Source of the DNA: Colwellia sp. | GTDB lineage: Bacteria > Pseudomonadota > Gammaproteobacteria > Enterobacterales > Alteromonadaceae | Direction: 5' to 3' | Length of the DNA stretch: 38,631 bases | Assembly (NCBI RefSeq): GCF_013215345.1 | Contig: NZ_JABSOV010000033.1 | Span: 1-38,631, forward strand | Shown here: positions 23,280 to 29,070 of the stretch, piece after piece | Layout of the letters: the number at the start of each line of letters is the position of its first letter | Position numbering within the stretch: the first letter of the stretch is position 1 | Made by a program: the position numbers and the translations under genes | Notes under the pieces: generated by a model | Told to the model about the DNA's origin: nothing | The model's input: the letters and a program-made list of their open reading frames with translations, nothing else | Databases searched by the model: none

Positions 23280-23483
23280 ATGGATTACGGAACACTTAGA
23301 GGGCTTGTTGCCCTCCTTATATTGGCCTTGTTTGTTATTATTGTCATGTGGTCTTATTCAAAAAAACGGAGTGCTGCATTTGATGATATTGCTAACTCTA
23401 TTTTTGAAGAAGATGAACTAAACAAGCAAACAAAACAAAGCCATATTGATACAAACAACAAGCAGGAGACTAATAATGTCTAG
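23280..23483 (+). CDS. ccoQ: cbb3-type oxidase small subunit CcoQ/FixQ
   Basis: 67 residues: one transmembrane helix (about 6-25) followed by WSYSKKRSAAFDDIANSIFEEDE, the typical CcoQ tail. In other bacteria CcoQ stabilises the assembled oxidase. GGAG five nt upstream supports the ATG at 23280; a GTG two codons earlier is in frame but less likely. Its last 8 nt overlap the start of ccoP. Confidence 0.92.
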   Translation: MDYGTLRGLVALLILALFVIIVMWSYSKKRSAAFDDIANSIFEEDELNKQTKQSHIDTNNKQETNNV

Positions 23484-24447
23484 CTTCTGGAATATATGGG
23501 TTTGGGTGCTTACTCTGGGCTCACTCGTAGGTTGCTTTCTATTACTACGCTGGTGTTTAAATGACCACACTGGCGTTGAAGAAGGTGAGTCTATGGGGCA
23601 CTCCTTCGATGGTATAGAAGAATTAAATAATCCACTACCAAAATGGTGGAGCACATTTTTCTTGTTAACCATTATTTGGGCATTTGGTTATCTTGCACTT
23701 TATGGTTTAGGTAGCTGGGGTGGACTTTTAGGTTGGAAAAGCTCGAACCAAGGTATACTAAACCTCGCTGAATCAAAAGCCAAAACAGCAGCGTCTTTAA
23801 CTGAAGGCTCTAACTTTTTAGTTCAATATGACCGCGAAGTAGCTGCTGCCGATACTAAATATGGTCCTATTTTCGATGCTTACGCTGCGCGTAGTATTGA
23901 AGATTTAGCTACGGATGAGAAAGCATTAAAAGTAGGCCAACGCTTATTTATTCAAAATTGTTCTCAATGTCATGGTTCTGATGCCCGCGGTACAACAGGC
24001 TTCCCTAACCTAACCGATAACGATTGGTTATATGGTGGTAGTCCTGAAACCATTAAAGAAACTATTATGCATGGTCGTATAGCATCAGGCATGATGGCTT
24101 GGGAAGGCGCATTAGGCGGCGAGCAAGGTGTTAAAGAAGTTGCCGCTTACGTTATCAGCTTAAGTGGTCGTTCTGTTGACCCTGTGTTAGCGAAAGCAGG
24201 TAAAGGTAAGTTTGCCTTGTGTGCTGGTTGTCATGGCTCTGAGGGTCAAGGTAGCTTAGCGTTAGGTTTACCCATGGGCGCACCTAACTTAAGTGATAAC
24301 ATCTGGTTATATGGTGGTTCAAAACGTGTAATTGAAGAGTCTATTCGTTATGGTCGTGCTGGTGTTATGCCGCCATGGAAAGACATTCTAGGTGAAGAAA
24401 AGGTTCACCTAATTAGTGCTTATGTTTATAGTCTTTCTCAAGATTAA
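23476..24447 (+). CDS. ccoP: cbb3-type cytochrome c oxidase subunit III (dihaem cytochrome c)
   Basis: 323 residues from the ATG at 23476, which has AGGAG 8 nt upstream. An upstream in-frame ATG at 23446 lies inside ccoQ and adds ten unconserved residues. There are two N-terminal membrane helices (about 5-25 and 57-78), then two cytochrome c domains with CSQCH (162-166) and CAGCH (249-253). Axial Met candidates lie in GRIASGMMAWE and GRAGVMPPWKD. The conserved LYGLGSWGG after helix 2 is typical of proteobacterial CcoP. It accepts electrons from soluble or membrane cytochromes c and passes them to CcoO. It is the last gene before the REP-like element and terminator. Confidence 0.96.
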   Translation: MSSFWNIWVWVLTLGSLVGCFLLLRWCLNDHTGVEEGESMGHSFDGIEELNNPLPKWWSTFFLLTIIWAFGYLALYGLGSWGGLLGWKSSNQGILNLAESKAKTAASLTEGSNFLVQYDREVAAADTKYGPIFDAYAARSIEDLATDEKALKVGQRLFIQNCSQCHGSDARGTTGFPNLTDNDWLYGGSPETIKETIMHGRIASGMMAWEGALGGEQGVKEVAAYVISLSGRSVDPVLAKAGKGKFALCAGCHGSEGQGSLALGLPMGAPNLSDNIWLYGGSKRVIEESIRYGRAGVMPPWKDILGEEKVHLISAYVYSLSQD

Positions 24448-24466
24448 TAACTCACATCGCTGATAT

Positions 24467-24561
24467 TGAACGGTAGCTCACAGTCATCATGACAATGTGC
24501 ATCCTGCATTGTCTAGTAAGCTACATCCGTGTAGCATCATGTGATCGCGAAGTACCGTTCA
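24467..24561. repeat. REP/BIME-like multi-hairpin element
   Basis: Outer arms TGAACGGTA (24467-24475) and TACCGTTCA (24553-24561) enclose two nested hairpins: GACAATG/CATTGTC (24491-24513) and GCTAC/GTAGC (24520-24535). Small palindromes ATCA/TGAT and GTCAT/ATGAC are also present. The motif CATCCTG/CATCATG/CATCCGTG recurs at regular intervals, giving a cloverleaf-like fold. This architecture is typical of extragenic palindromic repeats downstream of genes. Confidence 0.75.
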
Positions 24562-24571
24562 TCCTGAACAT

Positions 24572-24607
24572 AAACCCTTGGTTACACATTGTAACCAAGG
24601 GTTTTTT
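24572..24607 (+). terminator. Rho-independent terminator of ccoNOQP
   Basis: Perfect 14-bp stem AAACCCTTGGTTAC / GTAACCAAGGGTTT with loop ACATT, followed by TTT. It is strong and separates the oxidase subunits from the assembly genes. Confidence 0.95.
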
Positions 24608-24620
24608 ATGTCTTTTAATA

Positions 24621-24928
24621 ATACCAAGCGGATTAATATATTGGTCAGCTTAGAGCTACATTAGCGAGCTTAAAACAAGCAAAAAGAGTTAAACATAGTT
24701 AGTCTATATTTCATTCCTTTTGTGATGTTATCAGTTTGCTAATGAGCTCCCAAAGGGCGAGTTTAAAAGGCTTACATACCGCGTTATTAATTTTGACAAG
24801 GACGCTACAGGGATGTTGCTTAATAGATAATGCAGGAGCTTATTCTCCTGAATGACCATTCAATCAATGCCTTGCCTCTAAGCCTTTTAGTTCTCGCTAA
24901 GTGAATAATAAATTATTCCGCTTGGTAT
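24621..24928. mobile_element. MITE-like element, 308 bp, with about 32-bp terminal inverted repeats
   Basis: The left end ATACCAAGCGGATTAAT is matched on the opposite strand by the right end (read inward: ATACCAAGCGGAATAAT). The first 12 bases are identical, and the similarity runs to about base 32 with about five differences. A second shared segment TAGCGAG lies further in on both sides. There is no coding frame inside, so it would need a transposase from elsewhere. Target duplications are unclear; only a TA/AT dinucleotide is compatible. It lies between the ccoP terminator and the fixH promoter. Confidence 0.85.
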
Positions 24929-24962
24929 AAGTAGAAAACTAGCTGACAGTTGAGAAAAAAGG

Positions 24963-24968
24963 TATAAT
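24963..24968 (+). promoter_or_regulatory. Candidate -10 box for fixH
   Basis: TATAAT begins 35 bp after the MITE end. The best upstream hexamer, CTGACA (24943-24948), has a short 14-bp spacing. If this is a promoter, the fixH start must be the ATG at 25006, since 24967 lies in the -10 itself. Confidence 0.45.
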
Positions 24969-25005
24969 GTCGCCCCATATTCTACTGTCAAAAATAAGCT
25001 ACTTT

Positions 25006-25500
25006 ATGAAAACCTCTTGGTACCGCGAGCCTTGGGCTTGGTTAGTTTTTATCCTTCCTTTTACTGCTGTTGTAGCAGGTATTGCTACTTACATTATTGC
25101 TAATACTGATGCTGACACCTTAGTGGTAGGCGATTATTATAAAAAAGGCAAAGCTATTAATTTACAGGTCGGTAAAGTAAAAATGGCACAAAAACTGGGA
25201 ATGCGCTTTGCGCTTCAGTTAAAGGGGAATGAATTAATAATCAAACCAACGGGTATTGAAAAAACCTTTCCTTTAATCAATGTTAATTTTTTTCACCCTA
25301 CTCTTGAAGAGAGAGACTTTTATCTAGCATTGACGCCTGATGGCAATGGCCATTTCAGACACCACTTTGAGCAAGAGGTTAGCGGAAAATGGAAGCTGAC
25401 AATAAGTCCTTTTGAAGGTCATTGGAAAATTCAAGACACCATTACTTTGCCACAAAGTGATTTTATCGATTTAATTCCAAACCCGATTAAAGCCCAGTAA
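25006..25500 (+). CDS. fixH: FixH/CcoH family cbb3 oxidase assembly protein
   Basis: 164 residues. MKTSWYREPWAWLVFILP opens directly into a single transmembrane helix (about 10-34), followed by the conserved VVGDYYKKGKAINLQ. A small beta-rich periplasmic domain follows, including NVNFFHPTLEERDFYLALTPDGNGHF and GKWKLTISPFEGHW. FixH works with the CcoI copper pump in cbb3 maturation. I place the start at 25006 because the protein then begins as its homologues do and the more upstream ATG (24967) overlaps a TATAAT. It is the first gene of the assembly operon fixH-ccoI-ccoS-SafE. Confidence 0.87.
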   Translation: MKTSWYREPWAWLVFILPFTAVVAGIATYIIANTDADTLVVGDYYKKGKAINLQVGKVKMAQKLGMRFALQLKGNELIIKPTGIEKTFPLINVNFFHPTLEERDFYLALTPDGNGHFRHHFEQEVSGKWKLTISPFEGHWKIQDTITLPQSDFIDLIPNPIKAQ

Positions 25501-28102: not shown

Positions 28103-28324
28103 ATGAGCATTATGTATATATTAATTCCTGTCGCTGCTTTATTAACCGCATTAGCGATATACCTGCTTCTCTGGGCAGTGAAAGCTGAACAATTTGATGA
28201 CCTTGAGAAGCAAGGCATGAGTATTCTTTTCGATGATGAACCAGTAAATAACATCAGCAAAGAAAAGCAAGAGGGTGAAATAGAAAACAGTACAAAACAA
28301 CCGGAAACCTCAAGTAAACAATGA
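28103..28324 (+). CDS. ccoS: cbb3-type oxidase assembly protein CcoS
   Basis: 73 residues. One transmembrane helix (about 4-25) leads into LLWAVKAEQFDDLEKQGMSILFDDEP, which is the CcoS signature. In Rhodobacter, CcoS is needed for cofactor insertion into the oxidase. The charged Lys/Glu/Gln-rich tail after the signature is variable. Its TGA overlaps the ATG of the next gene (ATGA). Confidence 0.94.
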   Translation: MSIMYILIPVAALLTALAIYLLLWAVKAEQFDDLEKQGMSILFDDEPVNNISKEKQEGEIENSTKQPETSSKQ

Positions 28325-29070
28325 GCTTAGATCTGTTTTCCGCTTTTATCATCGGCTTACTCGGCTCAGGTCACTGTTTAGCCATGTGTGGTGGCATTAC
28401 CACTATGCTCACTTCAGCTATTGATAAGCCTGCAAATCTGCACACGGCTAAAGCCAGCGACCAAGGCGATATCCCGGTTAATGTAACTTCATCACAGCCA
28501 AGCTGCTCACCCTATGCCTTTCGCTTGAACTTAGTCTTTTTTTACCATATTGGGCGTATTGCTAGTTATTGTTTAATTGGCGCAATCGTCGGTTTCACAG
28601 GCTCAATTGCCGCTAAAAACATTGGTATACCTATCGCCGGTTTACGTTTGGTTGCTGCCTTATTTCTCATTTTACTGGGTTTATATATTGGAAAATGGCT
28701 TTTATGGCTCAACCGCATTGAAGCACTAGGTAAAGGTTTATGGGGTTATTTATCGCCAATGGCTAAACATGTTATTCCTGTTGATAATCGCAAAAAAGCC
28801 CTTGCTTTAGGTGCTTTATGGGGCTGGTTACCTTGTGGCTTGGTATATTCAACCCTCACCTGGGCACTTGCTAGTGGCAGTAGCTTAACCGGCGCCAATA
28901 TCATGCTTTTTTTCGGTTTAGGGACTTTACCGGCCTTAATCGCATTATCACTTGGTATCGGTAGTATAAAAAAACTACTGGTTAATTTAGCCTTTCGAAA
29001 GGCCATGGCTATCTCTCTTATCGGCTATGGTATATATAGTTTTACTGTTGCATTTCAACTAATCTTCTAA
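28321..29070 (+). CDS. SafE/UreH-2 domain membrane protein of the cbb3 cluster
   Basis: 249 residues with six or so transmembrane helices. LLGSGHCLAMCGGI at the N-terminus is the conserved metal-like Cys/His motif of the UreH-type transmembrane domain, related to the DsbD core. A second repeat has GALWGWLPCGLVYSTLTWALASG. Homologues sit between ccoS and fnr in many gammaproteobacteria and are thought to help cytochrome oxidase biogenesis, probably in metal or thiol transfer (inference). A hydrophilic insert (about 38-62) separates the first helix from the second. It is translationally coupled to ccoS. Confidence 0.85.
   Translation: MSLDLFSAFIIGLLGSGHCLAMCGGITTMLTSAIDKPANLHTAKASDQGDIPVNVTSSQPSCSPYAFRLNLVFFYHIGRIASYCLIGAIVGFTGSIAAKNIGIPIAGLRLVAALFLILLGLYIGKWLLWLNRIEALGKGLWGYLSPMAKHVIPVDNRKKALALGALWGWLPCGLVYSTLTWALASGSSLTGANIMLFFGLGTLPALIALSLGIGSIKKLLVNLAFRKAMAISLIGYGIYSFTVAFQLIF

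Follow-up and report, generated by a model that had tools for sequence, protein, structure and literature searches.

A three-armed palindromic MITE in the ccoP-fixH spacer of Colwellia, probably inserted between a terminator and a promoter-like sequence that were already in place

In Colwellia sp., an inverted-repeat sequence lies between the structural genes of the cbb3 oxidase and the assembly genes that begin with fixH, and the locus raises the question of whether this sequence is a mobile element and whether its arrival separated the two groups of genes. The window analysed here is the whole 38,631-nt stretch of contig NZ_JABSOV010000033.1, in which ccoN, ccoO, and ccoP were identified by NCBIfam matches. 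A preliminary description had placed a MITE-like insertion of 308 bp, lacking a coding frame, between the ccoP terminator and fixH, within 24621–24968. An element is indeed present there, and it measures 306 bp: it starts with TACCAAGCGG (TACC at 24622) and finishes with CCGCTTGGTA (GGTA to 24927), and a TAA directly abuts both termini. The described end at 24968 takes in fixH promoter DNA outside the element; TATAAT, the candidate −10 box said to lie 35 bp past the element, is found at that distance, at 24963–24968. The terminal inverted repeat (24610–24647 and 24902–24939) is 79% complementary, and no ORF of 80 or more amino acids occurs between ccoP and the fixH frame, in agreement with the reported absence of a coding frame. 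The element is predicted to fold into a terminal stem with two hairpin arms (−106 kcal/mol, z −7.3, beating 100 of 100 dinucleotide shuffles), and the opposite strand folds with a z of −7.1. The features of the locus are collected in Table 1.

Table 1. Features of the ccoP-fixH region (positions are those of the window)
Feature	Position	Strand	Basis or remark
ccoP	23446–24447		NCBIfam
Separate 95-bp palindrome-like repeat (TGAACGGTA...TACCGTTCA), just after ccoP	24467..24561	−	Holds a reversed copy of the 48-bp module
ccoP intrinsic terminator, 15-bp stem and six T, most likely ancestral	24572..24607	+	Hairpin and T-run in 29/30 spacers
Left TAA, 3-bp target repeat	24619..24621	.	Identical TNA repeats at 57/98 clear-ended copies
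MITE copy, long form, three-armed palindromic, 306 bp, TACC...GGTA	24622..24927	+	Dispersed matches, ends, TAA repeats
48-bp double-hairpin module (ACGCTACAGGG...TTCTCCT), inside arm 2	24802..24849	+	Missing from the orthologous copy in G029
Right TAA, 3-bp target repeat	24928..24930	.	Flank reading
fixH promoter-like CTAGCT-18-TATAAT, outside the element, most likely ancestral	24939..24968	+	TATAAT in 30/30 and CTAG-type motif in 28/30 spacers (regular expression)
fixH coding sequence from probable start M14 of the longest frame	25006..25500	+	Pfam, start position in relatives

The element is one copy of a dispersed family. A genome-wide search, scoring 40 of 122 first-look candidates, yielded at least 54 matching stretches at E ≤ 0.001 in the 4.24 Mb (257 contigs) of its own genome, a count in which one copy may yield two stretches. 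Every one of the 39 genus genomes, its own included, contains a match, and 111 distinct full-length copies were gathered from the genus, a set biased toward sequences that match the window copy. Their lengths were taken by profile, which for the window copy gives one base more than counting from TACC to GGTA, and they fall into classes of 260 to 266 bp (61 copies), 273 to 276 bp (7), 306 to 313 bp (28), and 316 to 323 bp (12), and three copies are longer. Target repeats were counted in 98 copies, after exclusion of the 13 without clear TACC and GGTA ends. An identical trinucleotide flanks 57 of them, TTA or TAA in 56 cases and TGA in one, against a shuffled-partner expectation of 27.7 on average and 40 at most in 1000 shuffles; the identical 3-bp repeat is missing from the other 41, and none of the 98 has identical flanks of four or more nucleotides.

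Occupied and empty sites were then compared. fixH is present in all 39 genus genomes, and the ccoP-fixH spacer was read in 30 of these, with nine left out. The element occupies this spacer in just two of them, the window and G029, the genome nearest to it by fixH; the 28 others are empty. The flanks of the two occupied sites are 96% identical over 149–150 bp on the left and 100% identical on the right. If the element and one TAA are removed from the window, 46 nt remain between the terminator T-run and TATAAT, and this distance is exactly 46 nt in 11 of the 28 empty relatives and 46 to 48 nt in 24; the exceptions are L063, L072, and L079 (37–40 nt by the last T-run) and L064 (290 nt). That this DNA is instead a fixed regulatory region of the cco locus is contradicted by the matching stretches elsewhere in the genome and by the empty spacers, and nothing was found in its favour, so we give it next to no credence. 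A partial copy of the family was also seen in a congener just past the 3′ end of fixH (L073:1254–1376).

From the copy number, ends, target repeat, and occupied and empty sites, and from the terminator and promoter-like sequence of empty relatives, all observed directly, we conclude with a probability of about 0.9 that the sequence is a non-autonomous MITE that landed, in an ancestor shared by this genome and G029 and with duplication of TAA, between a pre-existing ccoP terminator and fixH promoter. The MITE-like mobile insertion of the preliminary description is thereby upheld. The element fits the working definition of a MITE in being shorter than 500 bp without a transposase gene and in having terminal inverted repeats, dispersed copies, a target-site duplication, and empty sites, except for an autonomous partner, none of which was found in the PF13586 and PF01609 loci. 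PF13586 transposase loci in nine genomes contained no TACC...GGTA partner; matches occurred in one genome, where the alignable copies end in AGGGGCTG. Among 30 PF01609 loci in eight genomes, TACC begins neither of the two best inverted repeats at any locus, and three loci have no inverted repeat. An end-pattern scan by eye in three genomes of g22, another genus of the order, gave no clear pair of partner ends; it did show two inverted ends 2.6 kb apart (G095:C5:103948/106548), the right one being half of a mini-palindrome, and a 585-bp end pair (G050:C11:85969/86531). Because no autonomous element was found in the two transposase families searched, we infer mobilisation: a transposase supplied in trans would recognise the ends and move the element, in this case into the short ccoP-fixH spacer.

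Did the insertion uncouple fixH-ccoI from ccoNOP and supply the fixH promoter, as had been proposed? Two observations fit that proposal: TATAAT follows the element by 35 bp, and the spacers of the two occupied genomes (517 and 561 nt) are the longest among those in which the ccoP end was found. The element-free relatives, however, show the same arrangement. A hairpin of −10.5 kcal/mol or lower, folded without a shuffled control, precedes a T-run in 29 of the 30 spacers, L064 being the exception; under a stricter hairpin rule a terminator is detected in only 17 of 30. TATAAT lies 41 to 54 nt upstream of the fixH start in all 30 spacers, with a CTAG-type motif upstream of it in 28, and in the window the −35-like CTAGCT begins 11 bp outside the element. 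Since the terminator and promoter-like sequence are present at matching spacing in empty relatives, they most likely predate the insertion. Neither the uncoupling nor the donated promoter finds support in this comparison, as the terminator and CTAGCT-18-TATAAT are kept, with little or no change in spacing, where the element is absent, and we consider an insertion-made separation highly improbable. Judged from sequence, the insertion probably changed little for the neighbouring respiration genes and would have been nearly neutral for fixH-ccoI expression; the strong upstream hairpin may still have a distal or subtle influence on fixH. Two variations were seen among the spacers: in L064 ccoP was not found in the stretch beside fixH, where the promoter-like sequence is still kept, and in L054, L057, L061, and L078 another short repeat (TATAGTACTGCGCGGTTGAAACC...-like) lies between ccoP and its terminator.

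The start of fixH also had to be placed. The ATG listed for fixH, at 24967, shares bases with the TATAAT box and is probably not the true start. The fixH matches in relatives begin at residue 10–16 in 23 of 38, a stop codon lies within five of the 38, and all 30 spacers have an ATG at the M14 position or next to it, which makes M14 the probable start. The product from M14 matches Pfam FixH (PF05751, E 4.3e-34); an NCBIfam search with the fixH frame gave no match. Farther downstream, ccoI and fnr flank a gene (28321–29070) with a match to PF13386 (DsbD_2, cytochrome c biogenesis transmembrane region).

Beyond the genus, DNA matches to the window element were found in 24 of 247 genomes and 11 of 87 genera of the order, its own genome and one congener included; the plasmid and phage collections gave no match to it. 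Most of the further loci that were read, in other families of the order, have the same plan with other sequences, and nine of these were folded singly. The shared plan consists of TACC(C), the terminal stem, (T)TCAGAG, arm 1, CTCCC-n-GGGC, arm 2, CT(C/T)GCTGA, the terminal stem again, and GGGTA or GGTA. In the g22 genome G050, nine full-length copies of 260–262 bp were found; eight have TA at each flank, and one (L243, ATA/ATA) has an identical trinucleotide. As the g22 copies are mostly TA-flanked, one transposase may not serve all members of the family. The scan by eye of G050, G075, and G095 also revealed many full-length copies together with palindromes of about 45–55 bp consisting of the ends only, several per genome.

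Within the genus, long and short copies differ by the 48-bp module of Table 1, at AAGG^GAAT, across several terminal-repeat subfamilies, and in L018, L030, and L125 a second, similar module is nested within the loop of the first. The same module occurs in a different dispersed repeat, represented by 14 stretches (L175–L188) of two sequence types; these start like GATAAAGCGTTTCTAAACC or GGTATAAAGTCATTTTAAACC. Of the 95-bp palindrome after ccoP, only the inner module part recurs in the genome (16 other partial matches), and the L052 spacer contains a stretch related to this palindrome. Flank matching among 32 full-length hits in this genome and 29 in G029, some of which repeat one locus, found nine orthologous pairs in all, three of which differ by the exact presence or absence of the module. 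One is the window pair, where the window copy has the module and its G029 orthologue lacks it; in L004/L081 and L009/L085 the module difference runs in the opposite direction. Just past the module junction, the window copy and its G029 orthologue alone among 123 copies read GAATGACCATT, the private base being the second G, at the fifth base. On the opposite side, the window copy has a stretch, GTTATTAATTTTGACAAGGACG, in common with two other long copies, L085 and L045, which is the kind of mark expected from short-tract exchange between copies. The module difference could be accounted for by such exchange, by precise loss, or by the module moving on its own. A short hairpin near GAGTTTA likewise differs in L002/L089, L013/L197, and L087/L104; beside L087/L104 there is a palindrome of ends only, about 30 bp long, that follows TAA.

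The arms vary in sequence between subfamilies and keep their self-complementarity. RNAalifold on 59 short copies (alignment A1) gave 57 pairs, 32 of them with double changes. With a structure drawn from the folds of the two strands, 92.3% of cells pair, compared with 86.1% after shuffling and 29.5–43.0% when partners were slid, and both partners are changed in 342 cells, compared with 92.5 in shuffles, none of 500 reaching 342. Both-sided changes affect 17 of the 29 terminal-stem pairs; in arm 1 they affect 14 of 17 outer pairs and 7 of 22 inner pairs, and in arm 2, 7 of 35 pairs. All these covariation counts use a structure derived from the very copies that are counted, and kinship among the copies, which are not independent of one another where related, inflates them; L041 and L094, which start two columns late in A1, entered the 342-cell count unshifted and the G-U/A-C counts below shifted. 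Among copies at different sites, the compensated share of changed pairs rises from 5–8% below 6% divergence to 43–44% at 24–33%. The nine G000-G029 orthologous pairs (G000 being the window's genome) contain 42 one-sided changes, two both-sided broken changes, and no compensated change, and seven orthologous pairs with other genomes contain 49, 9, and 13, respectively. In some of these 16 pairs the flanks match modestly (L130/L139, over 96 bp at 86–91%), and L032/L158 (short flanks) and L127/L165, L095/L157, and L157/L193 (single flank) were left out. The contrast given by the orthologous pairs is weak, because copies at different sites also show only 5–8% compensated changes at matched low divergence. 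Copies would appear to drift after landing, the source lineages being where pairing is repaired or selected.

Two explanations of the covariation were weighed. The family could be a structured RNA of the + strand whose fold is selected in the host, as the deep covariation and the recurrence of the plan outside the genus would suggest. Wobble pairs are also commoner in whole folds of the + strand than of the − strand (7.8 versus 4.3 per copy in 123 genus copies). In 22 further rows (L210–L234), of which one is a congener and two, L214 and L219, are the same stretch, they number 165 versus 118, and fold energy is lower on the + strand in 15 of the 22. Against this, the column counts are not consistently skewed: G-U and A-C cells number 88 and 62 in the terminal stem, 185 and 80 in arm 1, and 22 and 48 in arm 2, the arm 1 figure being dominated by a few columns in which G-U is the usual pair, and 39 pairs have more G-U and 28 more A-C. 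Gene orientation around 45 copies shows no strong bias (++ 15, −− 12, −+ 11, +− 7; orthologous pairs are included and ORF calling was crude), uncompensated changes pile up in orthologous copies, and an Rfam search of 24400–25100 returned two hits, both under gathering scores, so that no family was reached. Covariation alone was dropped as proof of an RNA gene, the both-strand structure giving no consistent G-U excess. A host-selected RNA is in our judgement unlikely; the constraint may act at the RNA or at the DNA level, with the counts leaning slightly to the + strand.

Somewhat more plausible, while still short of an even chance, is that the covariation arises by template switching between the arms of an imperfect palindrome, one arm correcting the other without selection on structure. 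Template switching is described as a mutational process that makes and repairs hairpin stems (PMC8794818), column counts without a consistent strand skew agree with it, and hairpins are gained or lost at fixed positions. The absence of compensated changes from the nine G000-G029 pairs speaks against it, as do the arm-junction motifs kept across several families of the order, which imply some selection.

Under the insertion reading of this locus, the three-armed self-complementary architecture would be kept while the sequences of the family change. Because single copies drift one-sidedly after landing, arm pairing is most likely maintained in replicating source lineages, either by a need of transposition or by arm-to-arm template switching during replication. 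A broader proposal, which we put forward tentatively, is that this mobile family, found in several families of an order, inherits its three-armed shape and not its sequence, with stem and arms rewritten and modules gained or lost at fixed positions and shared with other repeats; a folded single strand, of DNA or RNA, may then serve as the substrate on which movement or module exchange acts.

Stably folding MITEs are known from prokaryotes, for example QMITE2 of Coxiella, covered in a review (PMC10969869), and Correia elements are mentioned in PMC4853749. The present element resembles such folding MITEs, so far as these two sources describe them, in its size below 500 bp, lack of an ORF of at least 80 amino acids, terminal inverted repeats, short direct repeats, and strong predicted transcript fold. 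It differs from them as described there in its two long internal arms, the covariation of these arms, a plan shared by several families of an order, and the exchangeable modules (PMC10969869, PMC4853749). No published description of this element family was found in the open-licence literature.

Several other repeat families offer parallels, drawn here from their general features. The bcr1 repeats of Bacillus cereus and the enterobacterial ERIC sequences are mobile repeats reported to have conserved secondary structure; this reported property is their likeness to the present family, and the hosts differ. IS5/IS1031-type elements and their MITEs have TNA targets, and a 3-bp TNA repeat is seen at copies of this genus; no matching transposase or TACC ends were found in the loci searched, and the g22 copies are mostly TA-flanked. 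REP/BIME sequences are mosaic repeats built of small palindromic modules in varied combinations, a property shared by the present element, which in addition has defined mobile ends and a target repeat.

For the organism, the placement of the assembly genes behind a terminator, with a promoter-like sequence of their own, looks ancestral in the genus, and the insertion should therefore not be cited as the cause of their separation from the oxidase genes. For the family, the copy set, the orthologous copies that differ by one module, and the covariation of the arms together offer a testbed for telling selection on structure from template switching and from movement of a folded strand.
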